From assembly GCA_964036195.1 (NCBI GenBank), contig OZ038457.1, positions 16,581,147 to 16,645,146 on the forward strand: DNA of 64,000 bases, given 5' to 3'. The translations under genes and the position numbers were made by a program. The notes under the pieces were generated by a model that did not search any database, had not been told where the DNA came from, and saw nothing but the letters and a program-made list of their open reading frames with translations. The number at the start of each line of letters is the position of its first letter. Within the stretch, counting starts at the first letter, position 1. Positions 4,241 to 63,690 of this stretch are shown here, one piece after another. The stretch comes from Sphaerolaimus hirsutus (Eukaryota > Nematoda > Chromadorea > Monhysterida > Sphaerolaimidae).

Positions 4241-7200
4241 TCAATCCTCTTCAATCAAATCAATATTCTCCACACCGAGCTGCATCTGCATGGCCAGGGC
4301 CTGGTCCTCGGCGGCGCCCATCTCGGCGACGACCACCTGCGCCTCCGGGGGCAGCGCGGACAGCACCATTGCCCTGTCGGCCGCGTCCGTCTCCATGTCC
4401 GCCATGTCCGTCGAGTAACACGGCTGAGCGTTTGTTTGTTTTTTTTTGGGGGGGGAGGGTGAATACTGTAGATAATAGTTGGTGACGAAACAGTTGTGGT
4501 GCTTTCACTTTCGAAAATTGTTGTTTTTGTAAAAGGTTTGAAAAAGGGGTTTTGTAGATTTGGACCCCCGCAGGGGTTCATATCGAGTATATTGCTCCTC
4601 CGGAGGGATTCATAGCTGAAAAATTTTCTGGGGGGGGGGGTTCGCGGGTGTTCAATATATAGGCTTTTCGGAGGCAGGGACGTAGCCAGGATTTTTGAGC
4701 GGGGGGGGGCGGATGTATACGGAGCCCGGAGAACGGGGGGGGCGGCGCCCCCCCCCCCTAAAATTTTGCCTCTGCAGTAGGGGAATGGCGTCATGGCGCT
4801 GGCGCCATTCGTAGGCGTGACGCCATGGCGCCACTGGCGCAGGCATTGGCGACAAAACAGCTGTATATGTCTGTATCTTACAGGCATATACAGCGACAAG
4901 GACGGAATTTAGGGTTTTTTTACTGGCTTTGAGGCCGCGGATACTGGTAAACTGAAAATATATGCTGTGTTACGGACGGTAAAATACGCGCTTGCGCGCA
5001 AAATTTTTTCAAAATGCGATAAAATCGTCTGCTGGAAGTGCCATTTCTGGCACATTTTTTGGCCCGGCCCAGGAAGGGGGGAGGGGGGCGGCCGCCCCCC
5101 CTGGCTACGTCCTTGTTCGGAGGTATAGAAGGAAGAAAAGGGAAAAAATCACTAAAAGTAGGAGAAAAACCACTAAAAATAGGTATATAAGTACATATAG
5201 TACAAAAAATAGCCGAAAATAGGCAATACGGAACATGAATTACAATTTTGAAGGTGAAAAACAATAAAAAGGTACGAAAATTGGCGATTTTGAACGAAAA
5301 TTGGGGCAAAATTTCTTTAAAATCGCTCCAGATAAATAGATAGATAGCTGACCGATTTGGGGGGGGGGTAAGGGATAGTACCCAAAATCATGCCTCCGGG
5401 ATAGATAGATAGCTGAGCGGGCCTCAGGGATAGATAGACAGCTGGCGGATTTGGGGGGGGGGGATAACCCCCCCCCACTACTAAACCCCCGGTTTGAAAG
5501 TACTTTTAGTTCTTTGTGAATTTTTTCTTCAGGTCAAATTATTTATTACCAAACAGGTCTCTGTTCGGTGGATTTCTTATTTTCCGCTTGGGTAGTTCCG
5601 CGCAGGGGTGTATCCTAGATTTTGACCCTTCCGGGGGTTGGATGGACAGCAAATCGCTCCTCCGGGGGGGATAGATAGCTAAAACTTTTTTGGGGGTGAG
5701 GGGGGGTTTCGCGGTGGTTCGATATATAGGCCTTTTCAAGGTGTAAGAAAAGGGAGAAACTGCTAAAGATAGGGGAAATATACATTTGGATGCGGAAATA
5801 ACTTTTCCAATTTTACTACTCCCCAAAATTTCTCATCATTCGCAGTTACAAAGTCGGGTAGCAGGATAACCAGCAGAAAATGCTTAGCGTGAAACTACTG
5901 AATGACACCCACAAATGTACAAAAACACAGGCAGTATTACCTAGGCAGTCGCTCAATGGAATTGCCGTCATGAGAGTGCAATTAGAGCGCAGACACATCA
6001 GTGTATTTATAGCACAGACATTGCATTGCAATTATAGCACGGACACAGCAGTGTATTTGAGCTATTACTCAGTAACTAGACACACGCATGATCATGAACT
6101 ATATACGCATAAATACATGAATAATTACGTACAGTGTAGCAGAATTTACCGCCGGGTGTACTGCAAATTCAAGATTAAGCGTACGGCAAAACTTTAAGCA
6201 TTTACCGTGCCATAGCATTTATGGCAAATTTGCAATTTTACCATACAGTACCATGTGCTGGAAATTTCAAAATTTACTGAACAATTTGCCAGTAAAATGA
6301 AAAAATTTACCATAACCTTCACGGGATTTGAGGGGGGGGGGTTATAGGGCGAATTTTTGCGCGCAAGCGCGCAATTTCACACACAAATTGACATTGGTGG
6401 TAGTTTTCATTGGTTTTGTGGCATTTTTAGTATCAGAGCATCCATTTATATGTGCTACCATGGGTTAATAAGCCATCATATGTTGCTGTAGTATATAATA
6501 TTGAGGTAATGTGCTTCCATGTACCTCTACAGTGTGTAACTTCACTCCCAAAGGAACAACCTCCTTTTATAACCTTGTTTGATCACTATTCCGTGCCAAA
6601 CTTGACCTGAAGTCACCGAACATTCGACTATAAGGCAATATACGAACATGTCGACCAAAAATGGATATTTTTGACACAAATCACCACTTATAATGCTATC
6701 CCATGGCTCCACAGCCATTATATGATCATATTTAACATCAGAGTATTGCCACTGTCTGATATACCTATATATGTTGACACTAGGTCATATCCGGGAGCTT
6801 TTAAAAACAACGTTTTTTATTCAAAAAAACGTTGTTAAAAAAACAACGTTTTATTTAAAAAAAACATCGAGTTAAAAAAACTTTTTTTCCAACCCTAGCG
6901 ACAGCTGATATTTTTATTTTTATATGCTTTTGGCACTATCCCTTGTTGCATTTTTAGTATCAAAACATCCATTTCTATGTGCTACCATGGGTGAATAAGC
7001 CGACATATGTTGCTGTAATATATAATATTGAGGTAATGTGCTTCCATGTACCTCCACAGTGTGTAACTTCACTCCCAAAGTAACAACCTCCTTTTATAAC
7101 CTTGTTTGATCACCATTCCGTGCCAAACTTTACCTGAAGTCACGAACATTTGACTATAAGGCGATATACAAACGATATGTCGACAAAAAATGGATATTTT

Positions 7201-22551: not shown

Positions 22552-23293
22552 ATATCCTCGAATAAAGACCGCAGGGGTGTTATTTTTTCGTCAAGACTTC
22601 CTGTTGGGGGGTTATTCAAGGGTGGGAGTTATTTGTCATGGACGATTTATTTTTTCGTCGGCGAGTTATTCGCGGGGGTCTTATTAGGGTTCAAACGGGA
22701 TTGACTTTTCGGGATCGGGATCGGGATTCACTTTTTGAGATTTCGGGATCGGGATCGGGATTGGGGTTTCGGGATCGGGATCGGGATTGGTTTTTTGAGA
22801 TTTCGGGATCGGGATCGGGATTGGCCGGGATTGGGGTCACGGGATCGGGATCGGGATTGGGATAGGCATTTTTCCGGGATCGGGATTGGGTTCTAGGGAT
22901 AGATATTTTGGCCATTTTTCTGGCATTCACAGTAGTTCATAAAGGTCTCAAAACACTGTTGGATGCCAGAAAAGTGGCATAAAATTGACGCTGGGGGTTT
23001 GCATCCAGTTTTTTGCATGCAAAAACGCCATTATTTCACTTTTGATAATTTCCACTAATTTTTCCGGGATCGGGATCCCGGACTTGGGAGTTTCTCGGGA
23101 TTGGGATCGGGATTTGAAAACTTTCGGGATCGGGATCGGGATTGCTATTTTTGAAATTTCGGGATCGGGATCGGGATTGGGGTTTCGGGATCGGGATCGG
23201 GACTGGTAAATCCCGAAATTTCACGGGATCCGGGATCGGGATCGGGATCCCGTTTGAACCCTAGGTCTTATTCGCGGATATGCGGTATTTACG
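22552..23293. mobile_element. G-like element carrying a family C insertion
   Basis: TATATCCTCGAATAAAGACC at the left and GGTCTTATTCGCGGATATGC at the right are inverted copies. The central part is taken up by the family C element 22685-23263. Confidence 0.6.
22685..23263. mobile_element. Family C hAT-like MITE, GGGATC core
   Basis: TIRs TAGGGTTCAAACG and CGTTTGAACCCTA. Exact 8-bp TSD GGTCTTAT at 22677-22684 and 23264-23271. Dense GGGATC hexamer arrays occupy both sides of a unique middle (CATTCACAGTAGTTCATAAA). Nearly the same element is at 63000-63602. Protein-like frames in it are products of the hexamer repeat. Confidence 0.88.
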
Positions 23294-28685: not shown

Positions 28686-31600
28686 GTGCGTTGTTTTTTC
28701 ACTAAGTTTCCTGTTATTTTTGAACATTCTGTCACATTTTTGCATGTCTAACCTAGGATTTTTGTTGCAAACCTAGGGTTGGCCGATGTCTTTTTAAACG
28801 TTTTTTTTTTAAACCGACGTCCGAAATATTTTTTTTTTTAAACATCGGCCGAAATTTTTAGTAGTAAGCACTAGGTATTTTGCAAAATTTTTGCGCGCAA
28901 GCGCGCATTTTCACACACAAATTGACATTGGTGGTTGTTTTCATTGGTTTTGTGGCATTTTTAGTATCAAAGCAGCCATTTCTATGTGCTACCATGGGTT
29001 TAACAGCCGTCATATGTTGCTAGGTGATGTGCTTCCATGTACCTCCACAGTGTGTAACTTCACTCCCAAAGTAACAACCTCCTTTTATAACCTTGTTTGA
29101 TCACTATTCCACCATGCCAAACTTCACCTGAAGTCATGAACATTCGACTATAAGGCGATACACGAACATGTCGACGAAAAATGGATATTTTTGACACAAA
29201 TCACCGCTTATAATGCTATCCCATGGCTCCACAGCCATTACATGGTCATATATAACATCACAGAGTATTGCCACTGTCTGATATACCTTTACATGTTGAC
29301 ACAACGTCATATCTGGGAGCTTTAAAAAAAAAACGTTTAAAAAACATCGAGTTAAAAAAACTTTTTTTTCCAACCCTAAACAAACCTGCAGATTATCGCC
29401 GAGCAAATGGAGCTGCTGTCTGCATTAGTTGCTGAAATTGAAAGTGGCTGCGACGCTGACACATTGGACTTCACGCGTAAAGGTTCGCTTCTCGGCCGAC
29501 ATCTTGATGTTTTTTCAAGGTGTTAAAAAGGAGAGGCGTTTCGCAGTGTCGCTGGTTCAACGCACCTGCGTTCTAATTGGTATCATCCGCTCATTGGGTC
29601 GATATTCGGCTCCTGTTCAGTGCGAAACTGATAAAGTGACAGCTTCAGAGGATGATCAAGGCGAGGATTTGCGAGCTGAGGAAAGCGACGTTTTGCCGCT
29701 GATCTGCCGAATTTTTCCTTGTCCCTTCGAGCTGCGCGGATCGAAGGATACTGAGCAAAATGATGAGGCGGTGGAAAGAAGGCGGAGTCTGCAGAGGGCC
29801 CAGCTGAATGTGGTGCACTCTAGACGGTTGGGTACATTGGGGTAAAGGGGCTAGCTTTGTTTTTATCTTGTGTCACCCCTAGTGATGTAAAAAGCGCCTG
29901 ACTATTGGCGCCAAAAGCGACATGGCGCTTTTCCGTAGCACAGCACCAATGACGTCACAGCAAAAAGGCGCCAAGCGCCATGGCCCTTTTTGCTTTGGCG
30001 CTAGCGCCATGGCGCTTTCACGTCACTAGTCACCCCCAATTAAGTTATTCTCGCTTTATATCCCACTTGAACCCACTGAACTGATTTAAAAAAATTTAAT
30101 TCAAAACGGTGATTGATTGATTTTCCCCTATCTCTACTAGACTAGTTTCATAACCCTTAAGATGCTTTAAAACGTATATAAATATCGAAATAAGAAAAAA
30201 TAGTAGTTTTATAGGAAAATACAAATTGTATAAAAATATGCATTGAATCAAATATTTACCACCGAACTCAGTTCACTTTCACCCGTGGCGACCGTGAACC
30301 GAATTCATTCGACGGCGCTGATGCAATCGGCTGTCGGCTACGGCACGAGTGTCGCGCGTGCAGATCCCCTCCAAGCGCAGTCCATGCCGCTGTCGCAGCT
30401 GCTGTTCAGCGTGCACGTGAGCAGCTACTGCGCTGTGAACTGCCTCGCGTCCAGCGAGGACATTGACCAGAACGGGTTCAGGGACACTTCGTGGATGGGC
30501 AGGTTTGGCCTGAAGCTTACCCAACAGGAGCTGGTCAATGTGCTGAATTTGGTGGGTGTTGGTTTGGTTATCGTCTTTGCACTGTTTCACCAGTCCATTA
30601 TCATTTTCTGTAAAAGTGCGCTCTTGCCCGCAAGCAAAATACCTAGTGAATAAATACCGAAAATTTCAACCGCCGTTTTAAAACACTGTTTCGATGCTTT
30701 TGTTCTTTATTAAAAAACACTTGTTAAAAAACTATCATAAAAACCCTGGTCATCCTTTTAGTATTTACCGTGTGACAATGCTGTTTCCCACTGAATGTTC
30801 GCTGTTGTAATCGCAGGTGCGCAAACTGCTAGGCAAAAGATTGCTCGACAAGCTGGACAACCACGCCACCGATGTCTACATGGTTCGTTTATTTCTAGAC
30901 GTAGACATCATTTACGACAATCACTCGTTCATGAAGTGACAGACTGTCCATTTCGCAGGGTGCAACCATCGCTCGTTTCCCGTACAAGACATTTGGCGAG
31001 GCGCTCAAATTGGCATGTCTCCAGCTGCTGCGCGATGCGCTGCAGCCGTACGAGAAAATACCTGCGTTCAGCGATGGCGCCAGTCCGCAGGTGCCCATCG
31101 TGGCTGGAGTCAAGTACCACGTGGATATACCCAAGGTTTTCATGCAGGATGTGAGTTTGCGAATGTGTCGCTTTTTGTGGTTTTTGATGGATTGTAGGGT
31201 TGGGTCTTTACTCCATATGTTTTTAACTCCCAATTTTTAGATAGCGATAAATACGTTGACTCGACTCTGCCGCCTCCACTCAATTTTTTGCTCCAATATG
31301 TTATCATTTTGCAAGTGAACGCCGCGCAGTTACACGCTCTGGCCTACCAACTATACACCACATCGACGCAACAATCGTCGACCAACGCATCCTTATCCGA
31401 GCCAATTGCGCTGGCTCCGAGCTCGCAGACGGCGGGCGGCAGACAGTCCAAACCGGTCAGGGAGCTGGCGGTCAACAAGCACAAGCTGACCGTGTTGGCC
31501 AACGCGACTTGCCTCGAGCTGCTCGTCTGGGGCGCGCTGGTGCCAATCCCAGACCTTGTAAAAATGCCCTGAAAAATGTCAAATGGCATGCAAAGTGTCA

Positions 31601-34600
31601 AAAGTCATGTAAAATGCCCTGCAAAATGACAAACGTACGTTTGCCATTTTGCAAGGCATTTTACACGACTTTTGACACTTTGCGTGACATTTGATATTTT
31701 ACATTGTATTTTAGATGCTCTGAGACTGCCCCTGGACGAGACCGAGGCGGAAAGTTTGAGCCAGAGAATCGTGGATAGGCTGATGCAGGCGCACCACGGC
31801 ACTAGGTATGCTATTAGTCACCTGCCGCTGCTCAGCGTCAGTTTGGAGGTGTGTTCGGCTGGGGGTACCAGAATTTTCGTTGTTTTAATTGCTCTGGGGT
31901 TTCTCGTGTGGTGTGCATTAAGCACTGACCTTTAACTGATAGTTGAGTGTTTCAATTAAGCTGCAACGGTACACGGAAATCGAGTATATTTTTAGATCGA
32001 CCATCGTTGCAACTTCTATGGAACCTTTGAAAGACTAAGGGTAGCCGATAACTGTAAAATCGAATTCATTCGCGATATTTTTGGAATGTCACCTGATTTG
32101 TATCTGCATCCGAAAGGCGCTGGGCAAGCTGTCGGAACAGTTCCCGTCGGTCGCGGCAACGACTATAGTTCCAGCACTAATCGAGTTTATCACTGCACCT
32201 TCGCCGCTGTTGATCAAGCTAGCCGGTATAGATGAAAAACACGTGCGTTTGACTATGGATGGCCGGTGTTTTTTTAAAGGTTTAAAAAACAACGGTTTAA
32301 AAAATAGCTGAGCGGGCCTCCAGGAAAGATCGATAGCTGGCCAATAGGAGACCGTGATGCAGTTGTGGCCTCTACTTCTTAGAGTCATTAAACTACTATA
32401 TTTTCTCTACACTTTTTCTGAGAGATTTAATTATACATTATTTTCGAGATTATATATAAAAAATTTTTGAAAAATAATATTTCCTGAAGACCACCACTTT
32501 TCCCCTCCCCAACTGTGACTCGGACGATCCCTTTACAGCCCGAGGGCGATCACGCGGCGCCCAACCAGCTGGCGCCGTGCGACATCTCCGGCGCGGCCAC
32601 CACGCCCGTGGAGGGCGGCAGCAGCGTGGCGCACGCCTCCGACAGGCAGGACAGGCGCGACCGGTGTTTCGCCATACTACGGTCCGCGGCAATTCGAGGC
32701 CTAACTCGTGGTTTGGCCGCTGGGTTGACTAGAGATCCAGAGTGTGCGAGGGCTTGTTTGGCCAGTGTGTCTACCAGACTATATATAGCTAAGGTAACTG
32801 TGACTTGCGCTGTCCGACCAGGGGGCAGTCCCGGACCCTGTAAAATGACCAATGTCATGCAGTGCCAAAAGTCATGTAAAATTGCAAACGTACGGTTTTC
32901 CATGTTATACAGCGCGTTTTACGTGACTTCTAACACTTTGCATAGCGTTTGACGTTGGACAGAGCATTTTACAGGGTATGGGTTTGGCACCTGGTACTAA
33001 CCCCGCATCTTGTCAAGTGATAACCGGTGTTTTAGTGCAGGATGTGAAGGAAAACCGTTTAAAAAATAAAACACGTTTTCAAGAGGCAACGTTTTTTTTA
33101 TAAGTATGCGCCCAAAATTATTTATGTCTTGGTCGAGAATGCGCGAGCTGGATACTTATGTATGCACTTTCACAAAAAGAAAAATATTTTGAAAAAAAGG
33201 CGGAGTCGCGTACAAACGAGGAATGTTTTTCCCGGAATGTTTTTTTTCTTTGTTGAATTATATTTTTTTAACGATGACGTCATGATGGAGTGGTTCCTTC
33301 AGAAAAATGCATAGCGTGCGGTCCGCCGAGTATATGTAGTTTTTTTCTTCAAAATAGAATGAGCCGTAAGAACGGACGGGACGATTCACTCTTCGAGTAT
33401 ATCACCCTTCGATATCGATATCGATTTTTTAAAAATTGCTATATCGATGTTTCAATTTGAAGATGTTTTTACCTAAATACGATTGACAAGATGTGGGATT
33501 GGCCGTGTTTCAGTAAAATGATTGTCACATCGAAATCCTAATTTTCACTGCAGGAGTTCGAAGGTGTAAGTTCTTTCCACGGTTTGAATACTTTTACGGT
33601 TTTCTCCTGAATATTTGTTACGATCACCGGTACAATTTTTTGCATCCACGGAAGCATGCATTCCATATTTTATCAGAAATTTTTTATCGACATTCTTTCA
33701 TTCGCCGTTCGATAAGCCCACACAGGTATATTGGCGCCACACACGCTGGATGTCAACTGATTTCGTGTCAACTAAATATTAGTGAATTATGTTGTTTCAA
33801 CTTTCCTATCTGATAGAGCATAGTTTGTTTTACATCATGACACTTAATTTTCACTGTTTCTGTCAAGTGCAGGGGTCTCCTAGGGGGGGGGGGGGCTGGG
33901 GGGGCTGCCCCCCCCCAAATCGGCCAGCTATCTATCTATCCCGGAGGCCGCTCAGCTATCTATCTATCCCGAGGCAAAATTTTTGGCTACTACCCGTATC
34001 TATCTGGGGTAGTTTTCGACTTAAATTTTGCCTTAAATTCGACTCGGTAAATTTTGCCCTAATCTTCGCTCAAAATTGCTAATTCTCGCACCTTTTTATA
34101 GTTTTTCACCTTCAAAATCGTGTTTTTTTGGCTATATACATGGTTATATACGTATTTTTAGCCATTTTACACCTGCTTTTGGCTACTTTTAACCTATTAT
34201 TAGCGATTTTTCCCCTTTCTGCCTTCTTAACCTTCAAAAAGCCTATATGTTGTGCCCCCCCCAGCCCTCCCCCCCCGAAATTTTTTCAGCTATTTATCCC
34301 TCCGGAGGAGCGATTTGCTATCTATCCAGCCCCCACGAGGGCCAAAAAATTGGAGACCCCTGGTCAAGTGTCATGCTTTTAAAAAGTTTGTTTTGTTATT
34401 TGGTTGACATTGAGTTGACACGTATTTGCGCTGTCAACTAGCGTGTGTGGACCCATTGACGCAGCGGGTTTACACTGTTTATTCACTTTCAAATACCTCA
34501 CACTCAACGATAAGCACACATATGTATACTCACGCGACACGCAGGCGTCCGACACTCAATCGCTCCTGGTGTGCCGCAACGCGATCACGGCGCTCGGCGG

Positions 34601-37600
34601 CGTGGCCGTGGGGCTGCACACCGACCGCTCTGTTGCCGAGGCCGTGCTGCAGATTTATCAGCAGAGATTCTGCAACCCGCCCAGTGGACTGGATGCCCTC
34701 ATTGTTGACCAGTTGGGCGAGATGATTATAGCTGATTGTGTTGGTTTTCGGGTTGTTGATCGCGTTTTTTGAGTGGTGGGTAACTGGTAGGAGCCCACGG
34801 GAAGCTTTTCAGGTTCTATTTGAATGTTTTGATATTCGTATTGTGCCTGCACACACTAGTTTTCACACGGAAATTTGAAAACTCATAAATTCGCTTAGAA
34901 CGCATTCGAGTTTTCTACAATGGGGTGGCTGTCAACTACAGTTGACGGAGATTAAAAATGACTCATTGTGGAAAACTCAAACACGTTCAAAGCTCATTTA
35001 TGAGTTTTCGCAATTTCGTGTGAAAACTAGTGTGCACAGGGCTATTGGTTTCGCTTTTAAATTGGTGATGTGGACAATTATTCTCGAGGGTTGAATTTTT
35101 TTCTTTTATCGACTAGATCGCACTTTCTCGATGATAATATGAGCGAGCAACGCACCGCAGAGCTCGGTTTACAACGAGGTCATGAAAATGTTCACCACCA
35201 TTGCGGTGGAAAGTTCCTCTGGAAGTTACTCTCCCACTGCTGACGTCGCGCAGCATAATTACAGGTTGGCTCGATCACAAATTAGTGTCTTCACGTTTTC
35301 TGTTGGCTATTGGTTTTCCCCTCTGCAAACTTTTCTGTGCTGAAATAGGATCCGGTGTTGGGTATCAAAAAGGCGGAGCTTGGCGCTGAACTATTTATTC
35401 TTGGCTATTTTGTGTTTTTGCTGTTAAATTTCAGACTACTTTTGTCAGCTCAAAATATTACCTATTTTGAAGTGTATTTACTTTTCAAGTTTATACCAAA
35501 CGCCAAAATTTTTCTCTCCATTCATTTAGGCCTGTGTATTATGTGACCTTTCAAATGCTGTTTTGTTCTATCGAGTCCAAATGTTTGACTTATGTATTTA
35601 GTGAATGCCAAAAGACCTGGCACTGTTTCCATTTATTTGATCACATGGGTGTGATGGAGCAGATAGTCACTTCATTTTAAGTATCAGCGGTTTATCTTGA
35701 GTGTGGCTTGAACCCACTCAAATAGTAAAGATTTTGGGGAGGTATCAGTCACCACCACTGTGGTCAAATGGCATGATCCAGTGGCGTAGCCAGGAGGCGC
35801 CCTACCCCCCTCCCCGTTCGCTGGCGTCCGTATACAATACCCCCGCTCAAAATTCTTGGCTATGCCACTGGCATGACCTAATATGCTTCCAATGGCCAAC
35901 CAACGTTACAAAAAGCGCCAACATGGCAAAAACACATTTTGTACACAAAATTAAACTACATGTAATATTTTCGACAATTATTCCAGCCCTAGATATTATA
36001 AATTCTTTGCTTTTTGTGTTTTGTGTCCGAAGTGGGTGATAGTGAAGAATTTTGGCTCAGACCAAGTACATAAATAAATATATCTGCGTCAACATGCTAC
36101 CAGTTTATAAAGCCACAATGCCTTGATGTAAATCAGCTTATAAATACAATTTAACTGTCATAATCCCAAAATTGCCACCTGCATTTATTGTGTTGTTTCA
36201 TTTTCCAGTGCTTATTCCCAATTTCGCGTTGGAGCGAAGGGAGAAGTTCCCAGGTACTGAAAATTGTTTTAGTCAGTTTTTGTGTTTCTGCTTGCGGTGT
36301 TGCTCGAGATCTTTATTTTTAAAAGTTAATTCACGTACCTATTTTAAATATTTCCCGTTGAGGAACTTCCATTGATTATGATGTGATAGCTAGGGGTGGG
36401 AGATTTACCATACCATTTACGTTTAATTTGAAAATTACTGGTCAGTAGTAGGGTGTCAAATTTCCGTTTCCGCCTTTCCGCAGGAAAATTTTTTACCTTT
36501 CCGTTTTCCGGCAGCTGAAAAATTTTTACCTTTCCGTTTTCCGGCAGCCGAAAATTTTTACCTTTCCGTTTTCCGGCAGCTGAAAAATTTTTACCTTTCC
36601 GTTTTCCGGCAGCCGAAAATTTTTACCTTTCCGTTTTCCGGCAGCCGAAAATTTTTACCTTTCCGTTTTCCGGCAGCCGAAAATTTTTACCTTTCCGTTT
36701 TCCGCTGAGTGAAATATTTTTACCTTTCCGTTTTCCGGCAGAAATTTTTTACCTTTTACCGTTTTTACCTTTCCGTTTTCCGTAAAGTGAAAAAAATTTA
36801 CCTTTCCGTGTTCCGTAAAAAAATTTTTTGACACCCTAGTCAGTAGACCTTTTAACCTTTTTTATATCAGTTAGATGAAAGTCTCCCAGAGAGTTTCCCA
36901 CCCTGGTCATAAATAAAAAGCACGCAATTCATTTTCAGTATTCTAATTTCACAAAAATGTCATCCGTTTGTGCTGTGTGGTACCGTAAAAATTCACCAAC
37001 ATACTTAAATATATGAATCAACCAATGTAAAAGCTTTCCCTTTACAGGCACATCTCGCTGGCGGTGATGACTGCACTGACGAAAATCGCAGCCAATTTAC
37101 AGGGTGAGCTGCAAAAACAGAACTACTTGGAGCGACTGCTGGAGCTGTTTACCAAACTTGGTCTTGAAGGGAAACGAGCAAACGAAAAGATCTCTAAGGG
37201 CACCATCAAGGTTATCATTTATTTCGTGCTGTTGTTTGTGTTTTTTTTCCGAAACGTTTTCGAATTTTTGAATATTTTTAGGTCTTTTGAATTTTTATTT
37301 TACAACTAGAAAAACGGTTTTAAATAGATTTTTTGGTGAAAGAATTCGAAGACTATTTTTGAAAACGAAAAGTCATCTTAGAGAAAAATCATTTTAAAAA
37401 TTAAAAAACTTTACAGATGTTTTGAACCGTTACACACGCGGTGCGCATACCAGTTCCATCATGTATACTCCAGTGACATTACTCCTTACAAATCTGCCAT
37501 ATCCCATATGAATAAAAGAACAAACATAAAAATTACGTTTGTTGTTTTATTCAGATGGGATATGGTAGATTTCATTGTAAGGTGTAATGTCGCTGGAGTA

Positions 37601-49600: not shown

Positions 49601-52600
49601 CACGCATCGAAAACGTTTTCAAAAAAGACCACGGCGAAAATGTTTAGTACTTACTTTGAATTCGGTATTTTGCAATTTTTTGTGCGGACGCGCGTAATTC
49701 CACATACAAAGTACAATTGATGGTTGTTTTAATTCATGATTTACCTGTGTATGTTCACTTATAACCATATTTGAGAGCTTTTAAAAAACACTTTTTAAAA
49801 AGAACTGGCGTTAAGCAAATGTCTTTTAATCTTCACTCCGCCCACTCAGGCGGCAATTTTCAAAGTGGGCGACGATGTGCGCCAGGACATGCTCGCGCTG
49901 CAGCTCATGTCGCTCATGAAGCACGTGTGCGCCTCCATCGACCTGCCCGTTTACCTGTTTCCCTACCGCGTGGTGGCCACCGCGCCCGGCTGCGGCGTCA
50001 TCGAGTGCGTGCCCAACGCCAAGAGCAGGGACCAGCTCGGCAGGCAGACTGATTTAGGTGAATGCTAGGTTTTTCTCTTTTGTCTATTTTATGTACATAT
50101 AGGTGGTTTTGTAATTCAGCTTTTTTTTTGCTTCGCATGGTAGTTGGGGGGGGTTGAAATTGGATGTGTGGTGTACTCGGTATCAACACTGCTGTTGGTG
50201 ATTGATGTTCAAAACGTGATTAAGTGAAGTGACGTAGGCCTACTATACATGACTAGCGGGTTTTACACGACTATAGTTAAGTCGATTAATTTGAGTTATC
50301 TCATGCATCCGGCTCATCTGGGCTTTTCCATTGTAAATCGTTACCCTGCAGGTCTCTACGAATACTTCCTGACTACTTTCGGCGACGAAATGAGTAGTGC
50401 ATTCATTTCGGCCAGACGGAACTTTGTGCAGTCCATGGCTGCCTACAGCGTGTTCAGTTACTTTTTGCAGATAAAAGACAGACACAATGGCAACATCATG
50501 CTCGATAATGATGGCCACATTGTCCATATCGGTGAGTGGTCGAGGTTATTGTATCGCTGCTCGGTGTGTATGCGCTTTTGAGCTTCAGTTTTCACTTTGA
50601 CACTTTCTGTGATCTGGTACGATCTGTGATTGATTGTTCTTTTTATATGATTGACTATTAGATATTGTGATTCCATTATAAATATCATTTTTCATTGTTT
50701 TCATTTGTTTTCAGATATTGTGATTCCATTTGATCATTTTCATTGTTTTCATTTGCTATCAGATATTGTGATTCCATTTTATCATTTTCCATTGTTTTTA
50801 TTTGTTCTTATTTGTGTTTCTGCGTACGATGTTTTGCGTGGCGACAGTTTCCAATCCGACCTCTGATGATCTGTTCTCCGGTGCCTGCATACGTCATTTT
50901 AATTCTGATTTGTCCGCGTTTCCAGATTTCGGCTTCATGTTCGAGTCGTCGCCGGGCGGCAACTTGGGTTTCGAGCCCGACTTCAAGCTGTCGGCCGAAA
51001 TGGTGGCCATCATGGGCGGCAAGTGGGACGCGGCGCCGTTTCGCTGGTTCATGCACCTGGCCGTGCAGTGCTTCCTCGCTTGCAGGTTCGCGGCTGTGAC
51101 AGCTAGGGTGTCAAATTTCCGTTTCCGTTTCCGCCTTTCCGCAGGAAAATTTTTTACCTTTCCGTTTTCCGGCAGCTGAAACATTTTTACCTTTCCGTTT
51201 TCCGTTTTCCGGCAGCTGAAAAATTTTTACCTTTCCGTTTTCCGTTTTCCGGCAGCTGAAAATTTTTTACCTTTCCGTTTTTCCGGCCCATTTTTCCGTT
51301 TTCCGGCTGAAAAATTTTTACCTTTTTGTTTCCGTTTTACCAGGCCATTTTTCCATTTTCTGGCTCGATTTTCAGTTTTCTGGCATTTTTCCATTGTTTT
51401 TCCAATCTGTATTTATCTTCATTTGGCTCATCCCATTGTGTTGTTTTTGTCTCTTGGAGCAGCATTGACAACTGGGATTTCAGGGTCAGTGAAACAGGTG
51501 CTGTGAACCCAATTGGGTCATATGCTGACACCAATAATTTATTCAAGTTTTGTCTGGTTGGTGTTGTGACCTGTCAATTTGCAATTTTGGTGTTGATATT
51601 GCCAGCATGTCCATTCAGTGATTTTATTTCATGCCCATTACTGCGACAATTTTATTCACTTTTGGACTCCTGTCATTTTCTGCTATTTTATTCATGACTG
51701 ATCTGGAGTTTGACAGCCATTCCCTCATGTTCATAGAACATTGGTTAAATAAAGCTTTGACTTTGTAATATAGTTCTAAAGCTTCAACTTCATTCGTGAC
51801 ACTCATGATGAAGTTATCGACGTAAATGTTGTTTATTATCATCGCCAACTGGTTTCGTTCCCCTTCATTTTCTTCATATTCATTCATGTTGTTTATTGTC
51901 ACATTTAAATGGTATTTTATGACTGCTCCCAAAATTGCTGGGCTGCAGACAAGTCCAAACAGTACACATTTAAAACGAAGTACTATTAAGTTATTTTCAG
52001 TTACTGGTTTTGAGGCATCTTTCAGCCAGAAAAATCGTGTGTAGTCTCTAGCTTGGTCATGCAATCCTATTTGCAAAAATGCCTTTTCAATATTGGCAAT
52101 TAATGCTAGATTGCCTGCCCTGAACCTCAGGAGTAGGCCCAGTGCTAATGGTGTTGTAATTGGTCCTCTAAAAAGGCACTCGTTGAAACTGGGCTTACCT
52201 CCATCGTACATGATTCTGCATGATGTCAATTTGTCCGGCGTGATTACTGGCTGGTGTGGCAGGTAATGAATCCCCTTGTTGTCTGTTTTGTCGTCACAGA
52301 TCTCAATTATTCCCTTTTCTAGTTGGTCGTCCAAAACTTTCCGGTATTGTTCAAATAAGTTTGGATCTTTGTTGAATCTTCTTATCAGTGATTTAAACTG
52401 CACCAAGGCTTCTGCTTTTCCCATGGGCAGGTCACTGATACTCTCTTTATACGGCCAGTCAATATAGTATTGTTTGTTGTTGTCGTTGAATTTTATGCTA
52501 TTTATTATCATCTCCTCTGCAATGTTGTCATCAATTGCATAGGGGTCATCAGTGATTCCCACTGCTTCTAGACTGTGAAATTGTCATAGTGTTTCCTTTC

Positions 52601-53883
52601 CTATGGCCACTATGGCTACTTTTTGATGATTTTTTGTTGGTCCAGTTAAGCTTGAACTACAAGTGAAGTTACAGGCATGATCCATAGTTGCAGAATTTAC
52701 AGCTACCACAATCAAAGCCAAACAGGCAAACCTGCATGCAGGTTTTCCTTCTGCAAATTTGTCTATTACCGTGCTAATTTCACTTCTTTTTTTTCCGTTT
52801 CCGTGAAAATTTTGTTTTCCGTTTTCCGTTTTCCGGCATTTCATTTTTCCGTTTTCCGTTTTCCGGCCGACAATTTTTTTTTACCTTTCCGTTTTCCGTT
52901 TTCCGCTGAGTGATATTTTTTTACCTTTCCGTTTTCCGTTTTCCGGCAGAAATTTTTTTTTTACCTTTCCGTTTTCCGTAAAGTGAAAAAATTTTACCTT
53001 TCCGTTTTCCGTTTTCCGTAAAAAAATTTTTTTGACACCCTAGTGACAGCTGCTTCGATAGTTTTCCGGGTTTATGTGCCCGTGTGCTGATCTGGGGCTG
53101 TTGCGACAGTGTATTTGCCAAGTGATTGATTTCTATTCGTGTATTTGTCATCCAAGATAGGAATTTGTCAGGCAAGAGACAAATACTCACCTTAAAGCTG
53201 ATCAGATTTCTATGTAAATGATTTCTATGGAAGTCAAGTTTTGACGCGTAGTAATTCGGACTTTTGGCGCTCTCGTTTCAAATGGCTCTCTAATGCATTC
53301 GGATAGCTCATAGGTTGGGTGCTCGGCCACGCGCACACCCGTCTCCATGTGCCCGATCTAGTTTTCCAATATCTAGTCGAACCCTGAACTTTAAATACTT
53401 TGAATTGTCCTAGTCGAACCCTGTGGATTATCATCGCATATGTTTACTCTGCGGATCATCTACCATAACGTCTACCATAACCACATGAATAGTGAACCAA
53501 AAATTATACAGTTTTTCATGGTAATATTTCGTTTTTACCACGAAATAGTTAATTACGAAATTTATCACAAAACTTTATTCATTAAATTATGTTAGGATCC
53601 TTCGCAAAGTACGCGCTCCACTTGGTACACGTGAACAAGTTTCCCACCCAGACCCCACCAAGAAGCGTTCATCTCGCTGGTGTCGCTGATGCTGGACACG
53701 GGGCTACCGTGCTTCCGCGGCAAGACCATCCAGCAGCTGCGCGCCAGGTTCGTGCCGCACGCGAGCGAGAGGGAGGCCGCCGCGCACATGGTCGCCGTGG
53801 TCAATCGGTGCTTCTTGAACATTAGGAGCAAAATGTACGACCAGATTCAGTGGGTCCAGAACGAAATACCGTATTATGAGTGA
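27099..53883 (+). CDS. PI4KA: Phosphatidylinositol 4-kinase alpha (PI4KIII-alpha), complete gene, 42 exons
   Basis: Converts PtdIns to PtdIns4P, chiefly at the plasma membrane, where the animal enzyme works with TTC7, FAM126 and EFR3 (known of the family). I modelled 42 exons with GT/AG borders. They join in one frame of 2283 codons including the stop (2282 aa; human is about 2100). Exon coordinates are in the six block entries below. Sequence similarity to animal PI4KA runs collinearly from exon 1 to the last exon. The start ATG 27099-27101 lies in AAAATGG context, and its first residues align with the conserved N-terminal helix. The stop is TGA 53881-53883, after the family-typical IPYYE end. 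The least certain junction is intron 10. No frameshift or internal stop is needed anywhere. Confidence 0.96.
27487..28151. mobile_element. Family C hAT-like MITE, CGATAT core, with a duplicated left end
   Basis: TAGGGTTCAAACGATATATC ... CGTATCGTTTGAACCCTA with the 8-bp TSD GTCCTAAG at 27479-27486 and 28152-28159. An extra copy of TSD plus element start (GTCCTAAG TAGGGTTCAAACGA, 27453-27474) stands just upstream. The arms are rich in AATATCGA and ATATCG. In PI4KA intron 2. Confidence 0.85.
28190..28320. mobile_element. Family B-variant fragment in PI4KA intron 2
   Basis: Carries AAAAATCGCTTCAAATAGCT, AGCCAAAAATTTTGCCTCC, a long G run and a final AAGACCCCTG, all in the order of B elements. The other half is absent. 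Confidence 0.5.
28774..29378. mobile_element. Family A hAT-like MITE in PI4KA intron 4
   Basis: TAGGGTTGGCCGATG ... TTTTCCAACCCTA. The flanking octamers TGCAAACC and AACAAACC match at 6 of 8 positions. The right TSD ends 5 bp before the AG-adjacent start of exon 5 (29392). Confidence 0.8.
29392..31539 (+). CDS. PI4KA: PI4KA exons 5-10 (residues 133-517)
   Basis: Exons 29392-29476, 29520-29841, 30272-30551, 30817-30882, 30959-31150 and 31330-31539. Conserved stretches include [32 protein letters not shown] and [14 protein letters not shown]. Exons 6-7 carry a long variable insert between conserved blocks, as in other animals. Intron 5 is 43 bp (29477-29519), the shortest in the gene. The end of exon 10 meets a transposon end directly (see the element at 31541). 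Confidence 0.9.
29880..30028. mobile_element. Family N hAT-like MITE, GGCGCC core
   Basis: TAGTGATGTAAAAAGCGCC ... GGCGCTTTCACGTCACTA, with an exact 8-bp TSD GTCACCCC at 29872-29879 and 30029-30036. 149 bp, made largely of GGCGC/GCGCC motifs. In PI4KA intron 6. Confidence 0.85.
30600..30770. mobile_element. Diverged family A remnant in PI4KA intron 7
   Basis: GTGCGCTCTTGCCCGCAAGC followed by AAAATACCTAGTGAATAAA and ATTTCAACCGCCGTTTTAAA matches the family A segment around its GCGCGC palindrome, with changes. Ends not resolved. Confidence 0.4.
31541..31731. mobile_element. Family I palindromic MITE interrupting PI4KA coding sequence (acts as intron 10)
   Basis: A near-perfect palindrome (centre about 31632, AACGTACGTT) with ends TGCCAATCCCAGACC and, from the other side, GGGCAGTCTCAGAG. 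Related copies are at about 32818-32990 and 61183-61365. CTGG flanks both ends. Reading across the gap gives WGAL then DETEAESL, which aligns without a gap to human PI4KA, so the ancestral exon seems continuous here. A phase-0 splice from 31540 (GTGCCA) to 31740 (ACGAG) removes the element and keeps frame, losing two codons. Confidence 0.65.
31741..39781 (+). CDS. PI4KA: PI4KA exons 11-22 (helical solenoid, residues 518-1153)
   Basis: Exons 31741-31848, 32117-32242, 32539-32793, 34545-34739, 35161-35264, 37048-37210, 37622-37781, 38213-38340, 38692-38885, 39171-39345, 39411-39573 and 39645-39781. Diagnostic strings are [73 protein letters not shown] and [18 protein letters not shown]. All phases join. 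Introns 13, 15 and 19 hold B, F, E and ACACACGCTAG-type elements. Confidence 0.92.
32302..32356. mobile_element. Family B terminal fragment in PI4KA intron 12
   Basis: TAGCTGAGCGGGCCTCCAGG and GATAGCTGGCCAATAGGAGA match the right end of family B elements. It is preceded at 32256-32300 by AAAGGTTTAAAAAACAACGG, a family A-like terminus. Confidence 0.45.
32818..32990. mobile_element. Family I palindromic MITE in PI4KA intron 13
   Basis: GGCAGTCCCGGACCCTGTAA ... CATTTTACAGGGTATGGG and TTTGGCA, a mirror-image structure with AAATG/CATTT repeats. It starts 24 bp after the exon 13 donor. Confidence 0.6.
33736..34452. mobile_element. ACACACGCTAG-type inverted-repeat element, split by a B element
   Basis: GCCACACACGCTGGATGTCA at the left and TGTCAACTAGCGTGTGTGG at the right. 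The left half matches in reverse the element at 38934-39122. The family B element 33870-34362 sits in its middle. In PI4KA intron 13. Confidence 0.6.
33870..34362. mobile_element. Family B hAT-like MITE in PI4KA intron 13
   Basis: CAGGGGTCTCCTAGGGGG ... TTGGAGACCCCTG with an exact 8-bp TSD GTCAAGTG at 33862-33869 and 34363-34370. Opposite orientation to the copies at 8264 and 19867. Confidence 0.88.
34843..35043. mobile_element. CTGCACACACTAG-type inverted-repeat element in PI4KA intron 14
   Basis: CTGCACACACTAGTTTTCAC ... GTGAAAACTAGTGTGCACAG, closely related to 23412-23645 but with one copy of the internal 40-bp unit instead of two. Confidence 0.65.
35779..35870. mobile_element. Minimal family E-type element in PI4KA intron 15
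   Basis: CAGTGGCGTAGCCAGG ... TTGGCTATGCCACTG, only 92 bp. The flanking octamers GCATGATC and GCATGACC match at 7 of 8 positions. Confidence 0.75.
36449..36838. mobile_element. Family F hAT-like MITE, TTTCCG array
   Basis: TAGGGTGTCAAATTTCCG ... TTTTTTGACACCCTA with an exact 8-bp TSD GTCAGTAG at 36441-36448 and 36839-36846. The interior is a tandem array of a unit of about 36 bp built around TTTTTACCTTTCCGTTTTCC and GGCAGCYGAAAA. In PI4KA intron 15. Confidence 0.9.
37462..37606. repeat. Palindromic repeat CTCCAGTGACATTAC / CCATATCCCATNTGAATAAA
   Basis: Inverted arms meet at about 37534 in PI4KA intron 16 and end close to exon 17. A partial relative (TTCAGATGGGATATGGTAGA) occurs at 39937-39970 in intron 22. 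Confidence 0.5.
38563..38653. mobile_element. Small G-like fragment in PI4KA intron 18
   Basis: GATGGGGGGGGGGATTATTC ... GAAGTATTCAAGCAAATACT, related to the AATAA subtype at 45854-46172. Confidence 0.4.
38934..39122. mobile_element. ACACACGCTAG-type inverted-repeat element in PI4KA intron 19
   Basis: CACACGCGCTAGTTGACCTC at the left and GAGTTAACTCAAATTTAGTTGACACG-type sequence with CATCCAGCGTATGTGACGCC at the right. It is the reverse-oriented relative of the element at 33736. Confidence 0.55.
40060..46391 (+). CDS. PI4KA: PI4KA exons 23-33 (residues 1154-1736)
   Basis: Exons 40060-40257, 40490-40694, 41245-41391, 41857-41996, 42174-42312, 42652-42844, 44680-44807, 44867-44982, 45069-45217, 45658-45793 and 46195-46391. 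Conserved strings include [51 protein letters not shown] and LAVQMFAR. The linker in exons 30-32 is low in similarity and rich in S, G, Q and T, as in other species. Intron 28 (42845-44679) is almost wholly a family E element. Confidence 0.92.
41100..41230. mobile_element. Family C hAT-like MITE, CGATAT core
   Basis: TAGGGTTCGAACGATATG ... ATATATCGTTTGAACCCTA with an exact 8-bp TSD GTGTGCTG at 41092-41099 and 41231-41238. 131 bp made of CGATAT/ATATCG repeats. The right TSD lies 6 bp from the start of exon 25 at 41245. Confidence 0.9.
41441..41834. mobile_element. ACACACGCTAG-type elements, probably nested, in PI4KA intron 25
   Basis: The outer ends GGCCCTACACATACTCG and CAACTAGTGTATGTCA bracket an inner pair at about 41643-41752 (GGGCCCACACACGCTGACGA ... 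AACTAGCGTGTGTGGGGCC). GGAACCAGTTGACATTTGGT is shared with 55425-55585. Confidence 0.5.
42875..44627. mobile_element. Family E hAT-like element containing a long foldback
   Basis: CAAGGACGTATTCCGC at the left and CTGGATACGTCCTTG at the right. The flanking octamers CCTCTCGT and CCTCTCGC match at 7 of 8 positions. It begins 30 bp after the exon 28 donor and fills intron 28. GGCGCC-rich sequence and G runs lie near the right end, as in other E copies. Confidence 0.8.
42992..44432. repeat. Long foldback (about 0.69-kb arms) within the E element
   Basis: Arms at about 42992-43678 and 43740-44432 are reverse complements. Landmarks: CCTTCCCGGACAAGTTCACC versus GGTGAACTTGTCCGGGAAGG, and CATAAGGAAATTTACTTGGG versus CCCAAGTAAATTTCCTTATG. 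The loop is about 60 bp. Confidence 0.8.
45347..45520. mobile_element. Short family B-variant hAT-like MITE in PI4KA intron 31
   Basis: CAGGGGATTTGTAGATTTGG ... CTAACCCCTG with an exact 8-bp TSD AACAGTAG at 45339-45346 and 45521-45528. 174 bp, an internally deleted version of the element at 4544. Confidence 0.85.
45854..46172. mobile_element. G-like element (AATAA subtype) in PI4KA intron 32
   Basis: TACCGTATATCCTCGAATAA with a G run at the left and GGGAGTTATTCGAGCATTAA near the right end, in partial inverted relation. It ends about 20 bp before the exon 33 acceptor. Confidence 0.5.
46745..47762 (+). CDS. PI4KA: PI4KA exons 34-36 (lipid kinase accessory/helical domain, residues 1736-1895)
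   Basis: Exons 46745-46900, 47093-47255 and 47604-47762. Family hallmarks are [59 protein letters not shown] and CDEEG. This is the PIK helical domain that packs on the kinase domain. Intron 34 contains the 93-bp family C element 46933-47025. Confidence 0.95.
46933..47025. mobile_element. Family C hAT-like MITE, GGGACC core
   Basis: TAGGGTTCAAACGGGACC ... GGTCTCGTTTGAACCCTA, 93 bp. The flanking octamers GGTGCAAC and GTTGTAAC match at 6 of 8 positions. The interior is CGGGACC and GGACCAGGACC-type repeats. In PI4KA intron 34. Confidence 0.8.
47427..47525. mobile_element. Family G fragment in PI4KA intron 35
   Basis: Repeated GGGGGTATTTCGAGGG, GGGGTATTTCAAGGG and GGGGGTAATTCGAGGAAG strings match the G-rich end of family G elements. 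Confidence 0.5.
47887..48112. mobile_element. CACACACTAGTTTTCACCGTGA-type inverted repeat in PI4KA intron 36
   Basis: TACACACACTAGTTTTCACC at the left is mirrored by GTGAAAACTACTTAGTGTGT at the right. Distantly like the elements at 23412 and 34843. Confidence 0.5.
48794..53883 (+). CDS. PI4KA: PI4KA exons 37-42 (catalytic kinase domain, residues 1896-2282)
   Basis: Exons 48794-49029, 49371-49518, 49850-50057, 50352-50531, 50926-51085 and 53652-53883. Motifs in order: [57 protein letters not shown], catalytic loop KDRHNGN (Asp 2135, Asn 2140), the DFG motif with Asp at 2153, then [19 protein letters not shown] and [19 protein letters not shown]. All expected catalytic residues are present, so an active kinase is likely. 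The DFG codon is split by intron 40. Intron 41 (2566 bp) contains an F element with a reverse-transcriptase fragment. Confidence 0.96.
49567..49800. mobile_element. Ancient family A remnant in PI4KA intron 38
   Basis: GGCCGGTGTTTTTAAAAAAG, ATGTTTAGTACTTACTTTGA, GGTATTTTGCAATTTTTTGT and ATTGATGGTTGTTTTAATTC follow the family A order with strong divergence. The middle is deleted. Confidence 0.5.
50661..50805. repeat. Tandem repeat in PI4KA intron 40
   Basis: About three units of roughly 50-58 bp beginning AGATATTGTGATTCCATT and continuing with TCATTTTCATTGTTTTCATT-like sequence. Confidence 0.7.
51104..53042. mobile_element. Family F hAT-like element carrying a captured retrotransposon fragment
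   Basis: TAGGGTGTCAAATTTCCG ... TTTTTTTGACACCCTA with an exact 8-bp TSD GTGACAGC at 51096-51103 and 53043-53050. TTTCCG/TTTTCCGG arrays occupy both ends (51104-51350 and 52785-53042). The 1.4 kb between them is unrelated and holds BEL/Pao reverse-transcriptase sequence. It starts 18 bp after exon 41 of PI4KA. Confidence 0.9.
51337..52700 (-). pseudogene. BEL/Pao-type retrotransposon reverse-transcriptase fragment (broken)
   Basis: A minus-strand frame of 312 codons (52562-51624) resembles BEL/Pao LTR retrotransposon RT, with [25 protein letters not shown], the motif A region [14 protein letters not shown] and motif C YVDN. The downstream piece 51546-51337 continues with [14 protein letters not shown], typical of the region after RT. 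Upstream the frame continues past an in-frame stop at about 52584-52586. Breaks: that stop, loss of frame between 51624 and 51546, Asn in place of the motif A catalytic Asp, and YVDN in place of YVDD. No protease, integrase or LTR is present. It cannot encode an active enzyme. Confidence 0.85.
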
Positions 53884-60141: not shown

Positions 60142-61182
60142 TGCCACATTTCATGTAAAAGAGTAAATTAGAGCAAAACACACAACTTTGGCTTGAAAAG
60201 TGGCATACTCAAAGCAAGTAAAGTGTTAGGCCCCGTTTACACGGATTTTTCGTGACGACAAAAAATTGGTGTCGTCACGGACCTTTTTGCGATGAAAATT
60301 GAAATTATCACGCATGTGACAACAAATCGGCCTTGTCGTGGCATGACACAAATCAGCCTCGTTGACGCCGACAAGCAATTTTTTTGTTATCATGTACACC
60401 AGATGCTTTTTTCATACTCTGATGTGGCTATGTCATTGATGGGGCCATGTCCACACAATTTTTTGTTTTATTGTATGATGCATTAATGACATTTAGGTGA
60501 TGGCACCTGAAGAATGTCGTCACAAGCAAAGCACGTTCACAGCTTGTGACGACGATTTGGAAACGCATTTGACCAATTTGTCGGAAAGTTGTCGGAAAGC
60601 CTCGCTACCAAGGCTGATTTACATGATTCCGACAAAATTTTCAATTGTCTTTATCTCAGATATTTCACAACCGATTTCGACATATCAACATTCAAAATGA
60701 TCGGAACAACCTGTAGATTTCATTTTTGTGGTTGGATTAGTGATGTCTAAATTAGTTATGCCAATTTGACCCGACTTTGTCATACACCATAAAAAACATT
60801 TCGGCCATGCCCCCACATAGTTGAAACAAAAAGACTTCATATGCCAAAGAGTTTTTTTGAACATCCTTCTCTGATCAAAAGTTCTAGCAGTTCAAAGTTG
60901 CATTTTGCCAGAGTTGTGCAAATACTGGTATTTTTGGGAATCGTAAATGTAAATGTAAATACCTTTTCCAAATAAAAAGTATAAATACTAAAACGTAAGG
61001 TATTTTTAAAATACCAAGGAATATGTAAAAAAAACGTAAACATAAAAATTTTACGCACAGTATTTGCCATTGTGCTTTGGAAAATACCATTATTTTCACC
61101 TATATATTTATGGGTCAATCGCTCAATCTGCACCACTTTCTGTTATAAGTGTGGCCAAATACAACTATGCTGGTGATTCTGG

Positions 61183-61365
61183 GGGAGTCCCAGACATTGT
61201 AAAATGCCTTGTAAAATGTCAAATGGCATGTAAAGTGTCTAAAGTCATGCAAAATGCCCTGGAAGGTAGCAAATCTTAGCTATTTTGCTGGGCATTTTAC
61301 ATGAGTTTTGACATTTGCATGAAATTTACATTTTACAGGGCATCGTACTCAACCTAGGATTGGCA
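61183..61365. mobile_element. Family I palindromic MITE
   Basis: GGGAGTCCCAGACATTGTAA ... TTTTACAGGGCATCG and GGATTGGCA, a third copy of the palindrome found at 31541 and 32818. CTGG precedes it and CTAG follows. Confidence 0.6.
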
Positions 61366-61433
61366 CTAGAGCTTGCACTCGCCCTGCCAGTTTCATGTGC
61401 TACTCACAGTTGTTGCAAGTGCGTCATCGGAAT

Positions 61434-62475: not shown

Positions 62476-62999
62476 ATCGGAATTCATCACAAAAAAAATT
62501 AAAAACACAAGGCTCCACAAACAGACAAACAGATTTCTGTGTTCAGCATTCAAACACATTTATGAATATTTATGTACCCAGTATTCCATGTGTAAGTGCA
62601 AGCGTGCAGTCACTTTTTTCATACACCGCTTTTCTGTAGGTATACATGTTACGTTTATGCAAAAACGTAAGAATATTGTTGGCTGCAGGTGGTGCGGCCC
62701 ATTTGAACATGTGCACGTGTGAACGATCACAAGTTTTTTTTAAAATGTTTTCCCTAGTACCCAGGTATTTTGGTCAGGAAAACGTAACAAAATGTAATGG
62801 TATTTTTGGAAAACGTAAACGTAAATGTAACTATAAATACTCGAATAACCAGGTATTTCGGGTAAACGTAAATACGTTTTTCCAACTCTGCATTTTGCAC
62901 ATAACTGCATGACAAGCAGGGCTTCAGAAGTGCAGGGTGTCAGTGGTTCCCAATGGGGCATGGGTTGGAGGTAGGGCAGGGGTCTCCAATGGGGGTAAC

Positions 63000-63602
63000 T
63001 AGGGTTCAAACGGGATTGACTTTTCGGGATCGGGATCGGGATTCACTTTTTGAGATTTCGGGATCGGGATCGGGATTGGGGTTTCGGGATCGGGATCGGG
63101 ATTGGTATTTTGAGATTTCGGGATCGGGATCGGGATCGGGATTGGCCGGGATTGGGGTCACGGGATCGGGATCGGGATTGGCATTTTTTCGGGATCGGGA
63201 TTTGGATCTAGGGATAGCGATTTTCGTCACTGTTCTGGCATTCACAGTTGTTCTTAAAGGTCTCAAAACACTGTTGGATGCCAGAAAAGTGACATAAAAT
63301 GGACGCTGGGGGTTTGCGTTAACATTTATGCCTGCAAAAATGTCATTTTTTCACTTTTTATAATTTCCACCATTTTTTCCGGGATCGGGATCCCGGACTT
63401 GGGAGATTCTCGGGATCGGGATCGGGATTCGAAAGTTTTCGGGATCAGGATCGGGATTGGTATTTTTGGATTTCGGGATTGGGATCGGGATTGGGGTTTC
63501 GGGATCGGGATTGGGATCGGGACTGCTTAATCCCGGAATTTCACGGGATCCGGGATCGGGATTGGGATCCGGGATCGGGATCGGGATCCCGTTTGAACCC
63601 TA
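63000..63602. mobile_element. Family C hAT-like MITE, GGGATC core
   Basis: TAGGGTTCAAACGGGATTG ... GGATCCCGTTTGAACCCTA with an exact 8-bp TSD GGGGTAAC at 62992-62999 and 63603-63610. Collinear with 22685-23263 including the unique middle. It is inserted in a family B remnant (CAGGGGTCTCCAATGGGGG). Confidence 0.88.
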
Positions 63603-63690
63603 GGGGTAACCCCAATGGGATCTATTGTAACTTAATTAAAACACTATGGCCAACTTCACTTGAAGTCATGAATGTTCAGCAAAACCGATA

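Follow-up and report, generated by a model that had tools for sequence, protein, structure and literature searches.

We analysed a 64,000-nucleotide window of the Sphaerolaimus hirsutus genome (C13:16581147-16645146, within an assembly of 348,482,957 bases and 762 contigs), in which an exon of the PI4KA gene is interrupted on the forward strand by a 192-nt palindromic element at 31540-31731. The 5' part of the exon (31480-31539) and its 3' part (31735-31850), both on the same strand, were recognized by translation and by a PI4K-alpha match in the PDB. CTG flanks the element at 31537-31539 and 31732-31734. A first-pass annotation of the window had described this flanking repeat as CTGG; the same repeat was seen here, with CTG as the duplication and one additional G that can slide. 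Single-strand folding of the element RNA gave a single long hairpin of -95.9 kcal/mol, with z -14.3 relative to 200 shuffled sequences. Taking out the element with one CTG joined WGAL to DETEAESL and restored the PI4KA frame. The joined flanks matched two distinct PDB sequences, both PI4K-alpha (phmmer, E up to 0.1; E 1.2e-4), and the alignment was ungapped at the junction, with a single gap 16 residues downstream. These matches bear out the first-pass placement of the element in a previously uninterrupted PI4KA exon. PI4KA matches genome-wide comprised two candidates, both at the window locus.

A junction at 31539|31735 (GT...CTG, 195 nt) yields the exact PI4KA protein. The putative donor GT would be the first two bases of the element (31540-31541), and the right CTG (31732-31734) would form the last three bases of a GT...TG intron at 31540-31734. 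The left CTG, assigned from the sequence and the target-site duplication statistics of the family, would remain in the exon as a Leu codon. The donor proposed earlier, CTG|GTGCCA, is the same and is favoured by the family evidence below. Its pairing with the acceptor GACGAG (31735-31740) had been regarded as the single frame-preserving splice, a count that did not hold: 48 GT-AG or GC-AG pairs at PI4KA preserve the frame with changes to the protein, including that Asp-Glu-losing pair and a variant using an internal donor. The latter starts at the donor-like GTAAAA (31558-31563, forward strand) and adds six codons. Exact protein was restored by none of the 48. Within the inner arm (31709-31716, forward strand) the family sequence TTTTACAG reads TTTTAGAT in this copy, with loss of an internal acceptor-like AG, and the end of the element lacks one C of the family consensus.

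The element belongs to a family of thousands. A genome-wide search with its 22-position inner terminal motif, allowing one mismatch, gave 7,666 matches, 3,901 forward and 3,765 reverse; the backward (reversed) motif gave none genome-wide on either strand, and the family terminus had no match in the viral contigs. Stretches around listed matches provided 136 non-redundant full-length copies, 133 of them clearly oriented, orientation being assigned by likeness to GTGCCA. Median length was 189 nt. GTGC was found at one end in 103 of the 133 copies and GGGG at the other in 88. Duplications in 64 strictly oriented copies were CAG/CAG (23), CTG/CTG (16), CTG/CAG (10), CAG/CTG (2) and others (13). 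The family is short, has terminal inverted repeats and a 3-bp target-site duplication, is present in high copy number and lacks coding capacity, as in miniature inverted-repeat transposable elements (MITEs). A sister-like family with a variant terminus (TGGCAATCCCAAGC / GCTTGGGATTGCCC and similar) and the same CWG flanks was noted at L010, L011, L015, L017, L021 and L023.

Reading of restored frames allowed 25 exonic copies to be named, among them copies in AMPK-gamma, ATRX, CNOT9, BCKDHA and, twice, DDX47. Of the 24 in the usual orientation, 13 have names supported by an alignment to a domain or PDB entry that crosses the junction, and 5 by a one-sided or sub-threshold match (calpain, two cadherins, FBXL and PLC). 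Six were named by reading only: SVOP and a zinc finger (ZnF) by reading alone, and ADCY, aGPCR1, SMYD and PH without a match. The 25th, CTR9, is the opposite case and was also named by reading alone. Pfam submission in two batches covered 20 proteins (21 copies) and returned a family at E < 0.01 for 16; the four proteins with no family were ADCY, aGPCR1, SMYD and PH. Residues fell on equal numbers of profile positions across the junction in CNOT9 (80 on 80), BCKDHA (57 on 57) and DDX47 (82 on 82). Further junction-crossing domains were found in NCKX (with only few residues left of the junction), OSCP1, ATRX, vinculin (gapped and under the curated cut-off), an adhesion-type GPCR, AMPK-gamma, an AMP-binding enzyme and an SLC23-like permease. 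Residue alignments were gap-free at the junction in AMPK-gamma, ATRX and DDX47, the last spanning two copies 40 codons apart. These lie at positions 4492 and 4803 of L022 (C1:3428093-3437093), one flanked by CTG/CTG and the other by CCG/CTG. Solved orthologues are continuous proteins. Retention of the element as coding sequence was rejected: it introduces two in-frame stops in PI4KA and at least one stop in 29 of 32 listed rows, the stop-free rows being CNOT9 and ZnF, whose lengths are not divisible by 3, and SLC23, with counts invalid for SLC23, SVOP, L055 and L082 (wrong frame). An apparent locus duplication was seen at L036 and L037 (C1:4977600-4978450 and C1:5054200-5055050), where near-identical protein sequence lies beside an element copy.

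The exonic share was estimated in two ways. A sample of 100 listed places on one chromosome, drawn blind to the flanks, comprised 93 elements, 81 of them with both ends, enough flank and clear orientation. Seventeen of these 81 lie in exons of named genes; 6 are aligned across the junction, 5 have one-sided or weak matches and 6 were named by reading alone. The named copies L118 and L124 fall outside the 81, having been drawn from a set selected to carry CTG at the GT end. By codon score, 42 of 131 copies were coding-like on both sides after exact removal, compared with 22, 16 and 39 when the right flank was shifted by 1, 2 and 3 bases. When flanks were shuffled among copies, 19.3 of 131 scored on average and 27 at most over 200 trials, so that about 20 of the 131 would be exonic beyond chance. 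The score alone overcounts; 8 of the loci it scored had served for its training. If these shares held, the genome would contain between several hundred and a little more than a thousand of these introns, an extrapolation from part of one chromosome.

Exonic copies showed a strong orientation bias. The GTG end lies on the coding strand in 24 of the 25 named copies, and GT is present at the presumed boundary in all 24. In CTR9 (L003), the sole opposite copy, GTGG replaces the family's GGGG and provides a boundary GT of its own. Codon scoring of the 81-copy sample gave the same picture: 31 copies scored as coding on the GT strand only, none on the other only, 5 on both and 45 on neither (p 9e-10). 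Among the 133 oriented copies these values were 42, 4, 6 and 81. The boundary GT was intact in 42/42 sense-coding copies against 72 of the 81 neither-scoring ones (p 0.027). DNA-level excision was rejected, as it leaves the bias unexplained. The proposal that a palindromic DNA transposon made the PI4KA intron is in this way supported beyond its own locus by many exonic copies, nearly all of the named ones sharing one orientation.

Frame arithmetic identified the right duplication as the candidate acceptor. Paired with the boundary donor it keeps the frame in 24/24 named copies, the only one of two acceptors tested to do so. With the same donor, the family's internal AG throws 21 of 24 copies out of frame, keeps the frame in one (AMPK-gamma) and is absent from two (ZnF and PI4KA). 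Splicing wholly within the element, from GTAAAA to TTTTACAG, initially seemed attractive for a palindrome but was also rejected: 21 of 24 copies would lose the frame, AMPK-gamma would gain 12 in-frame codons, and two copies have lost the AG. The right duplication in the 24 copies is CAG in 14, CTG in 7, CTG minus one element C in 2 (PI4KA and AMPK-gamma) and CGG in 1. In the 13 junction-aligned copies the candidate acceptor is AG in 5 and non-AG in 8. Median distance to consensus in exonic copies was 7.8% for CTG/CTG (6 copies), 6.7% for CAG/CAG (9), 8.0% for CTG/CAG (5) and 9.9% for four others including PI4KA. Non-AG copies therefore look no younger than AG copies, from which we tentatively infer that the host may tolerate a TG acceptor at PI4KA.

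Mismatched duplications may point to a subsequent change at the acceptor. In sense-coding copies the combination of left CTG and right CAG occurs 11 times, and left CAG with right CTG never. In NCKX and SVOP, Leu from the left CTG presumably suits the protein better than Gln, judging by relatives; the change would thus seem to lie in the right copy. Selection for an AG acceptor would be a fair, if tentative, reading of this excess.

We consider it probable, from the in-frame right duplication in all 24 copies and the 24-of-25 orientation of the GTG end, that the family is a near-fully palindromic MITE acting as an introner, with a boundary GT donor, an intron end at the right CWG, exact exon restoration and, in PI4KA, a TG acceptor. 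Insertion would take place at sites resembling CCWGG and would duplicate the 3-bp CWG. The decisive difference between its ends would be one base, GTGCCA versus GGGGCA: with the GTGCCA end toward the 5' side of the gene, splicing could run from the boundary GT to the right duplication, removing the element plus one CWG and restoring the exon exactly. A CAG target would give a standard GT-AG intron. A CTG or CGG target would require a non-AG acceptor, as for the predicted PI4KA intron 31540-31734 (GT...CTG). The insertions into exons, the restored frames, the orientation bias, the frame arithmetic and the copy number were observed; transcript splicing, the exact junctions and use of a TG acceptor are inferred from them. 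A wider proposal is held more tentatively, at slightly below even confidence: that there are hundreds of recently made spliceosomal introns with TG (or GG) as their only acceptor, the CWG duplication giving AG only in its A version, and that a right CTG then tends to CAG, making the repair of new introns visible copy by copy. The earlier interpretation was right in kind and probably wrong in its junction, and the phenomenon is much larger than one locus.

Several observations weigh against this interpretation. At the putative acceptor, 10 of the 24 named copies, PI4KA included, have no AG. Human TG 3' splice sites occur, in the accessible part of the report on them, only as alternatives beside an AG acceptor and never alone (PMC2374985). 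The CTG/CAG excess also appears in neither-scoring copies (11, with 4 of the reverse), so it may partly reflect the insertion reaction, and sense-coding and non-coding copies did not differ significantly in right-hand A versus T (p 0.20). GTGCCA is a poor donor match, with better-looking sites in the inner arms (GTAAAA and TTTTACAG), and assigning orientation by GTGCCA favours GT in any copy. The background of the codon score is high, about 19 of 131 by shuffling, and on the opposite strand 26 of 131 copies scored as coding-like after exact removal, compared with 16 and 21 after shifting. We take these opposite-strand scores to be coding-strand shadows plus background.

In one alternative, splicing runs from GTAAAA, 18 bases inside the element, to the right duplication, leaving six extra residues in the protein (VPIPDL in PI4KA). 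GTAAAA is the better donor, its 18 retained bases are stop-free and in frame in all 24 named copies, and this pairing with the boundary acceptor holds the frame in 24/24, for which reason it was kept as a rival. However, the site is present at both ends of the palindrome, so that both orientations should work, whereas 24 to 1 was observed and the one exception carries its own boundary GT; the bias is best explained by the boundary GT. The six residues would also fall inside conserved helicase and CNOT9 segments, and PI4KA would still require a TG acceptor. We regard this route as unlikely. About as unlikely, if slightly less so, is a mixed situation in which the CAG-type copies are introns, while exonic copies of the CTG and CGG types, including the one in PI4KA, go unspliced and are disruptive alleles for which the sequenced individual is heterozygous; a non-spliced, disruptive allele at PI4KA was also the alternative named in the first-pass annotation. 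TG or GG acceptors alone normally fail, the assembly displays one haplotype, and the CTG/CAG excess suggests a preference for AG. Yet the host genes are widely conserved (CNOT9, DDX47 twice, BCKDHA, ATRX, AMPK-gamma and PI4KA), a single locus each was found for CNOT9 and PI4KA, and divergence from the consensus equals that of CAG-type copies. Nor was a near-identical sibling found for either copy among 40 candidates scored for each: the closest full-length sibling was 90% identical for PI4KA (93% over parts) and 91% for CNOT9.

The junction first proposed for PI4KA, from CTG|GTGCCA to the host acceptor GACGAG ending at 31740, has the merit of a GT-AG intron that keeps the frame. The Asp-Glu it discards is present in solved PI4K-alpha. 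Applied to sister CTG copies, the rule breaks down: using the first AG downstream would cost CNOT9 five conserved residues and put BCKDHA and the second DDX47 copy out of frame. We consider it very improbable. Slightly less credible still is removal without the spliceosome, guided by a hairpin whose paired arms would bring the exon ends together, as proposed for euglenid nonconventional introns. The near-perfect hairpins with adjoining ends (z -14.3 and -17.0), the weak splice consensus and the NG ends would suit such a process, but all 42 sense-coding copies keep GT, and the final G is most often preceded by A (23/42), both of which suggest a GT/AG reading.

The family would work like known introners, drawing its donor from the element and its acceptor from the insertion site. 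As far as the accessible text of the introner survey goes (Gozashti et al. 2022, PMC9860276), introners are likewise non-autonomous elements with terminal inverted repeats, target-site duplications and many copies, in which the element supplies one splice site and the insertion site the other. The Chrysochromulina introner carries its 5' site and co-opts its 3' site, and the survey reports introners in only two animal groups (PMC9860276). Unlike those surveyed, the present family has an animal host and is fully palindromic at ~190 bp, and the middle base of its CWG duplication would set the AG ending (PMC9860276). Introner elements of Amoebophrya, as described in the text available, also have hairpin-forming inverted repeats, 3-5 nt direct repeats at their borders and non-canonical ends; they differ in their dinoflagellate host and many border types, against one family with a GT and CNG border here (PMC7789003). 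A TG acceptor is shared with human U2 introns having TG 3' splice sites, although here TG would be the sole acceptor (PMC2374985, in part). Euglenid nonconventional introns, to the extent that the source covers them, resemble the family in a hairpin that joins both ends and in their transposon-like look, but have no conserved borders, whereas GT is kept here. A tunicate lineage is described, in the accessible part of its report, as handling non-canonical intron ends with duplicated U2AF (PMC13326754).

By its CWG duplication and one GGG terminus the family resembles NuwaI, a group within the PIF/Harbinger-like PHIS superfamily that has a CWG duplication and terminal inverted repeats usually beginning GGG and is known, in the available portion of its description, from animals only; that portion makes no mention of intron formation (PMC4482050). 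The other end of the present family differs in beginning with GTG, which would supply the donor (PMC4482050); a single G to T change at one terminus likely made the element splice-competent. The literature search found no account of NuwaI-type or CWG introners, most subscription papers being outside its reach. For NuwaI, a Harbinger-type transposase and a Myb/SANT protein with matching terminal inverted repeats would be expected. The Harbinger-type transposase domain DDE_Tnp_4 had 163 matches in the genome. Many of these align 147 profile positions over an identical span of 633 bases, contain 4 TGA and score almost alike, which suggests a multicopy family whose transposase gene has small introns. 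A link between this transposase and the element family through its ends was not achieved, the termini being absent from the one 4-kb stretch read, which gave two 8-mismatch likenesses to the terminal inverted repeat and no CWG-flanked end.

Most introns are too old to reveal their origin. Here one transposon family offers many insertions in conserved genes, with a built-in comparison of AG and TG acceptors that turns on one target base. Two questions become testable in one animal: how the splicing of a new intron works from the outset, and whether TG can serve the spliceosome as its sole acceptor. NuwaI-like transposons would be a possible introner source in an animal.

The window holds two further copies of the family, both on the reverse strand. 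One, diverged and in the opposite orientation, lies in an apparently ordinary PI4KA intron (32822-32990); the other is degraded and lies outside recognizable coding sequence (61181-61366). An Rfam scan of the window at gathering thresholds gave no match. Repeat arrays of TTTACCTTTCCGTTTTCCGGCAG-like units, unrelated to the element, occupy 36454-36819 and 51109-53062, and a GGGATCGGGATT-rich direct repeat pair lies at 22680-23265 and 62995-63604, 40 kb apart. Elsewhere in the assembly, a mitochondrial stretch (L131, contig C762) has 19% GC and by reading contains COX1, with ATP6 downstream and reverse-strand NAD1 upstream. By our reading, its COX1 makes best sense if AGR encodes Ser and AAA encodes Lys, which indicates code 5 and is protostome-like.

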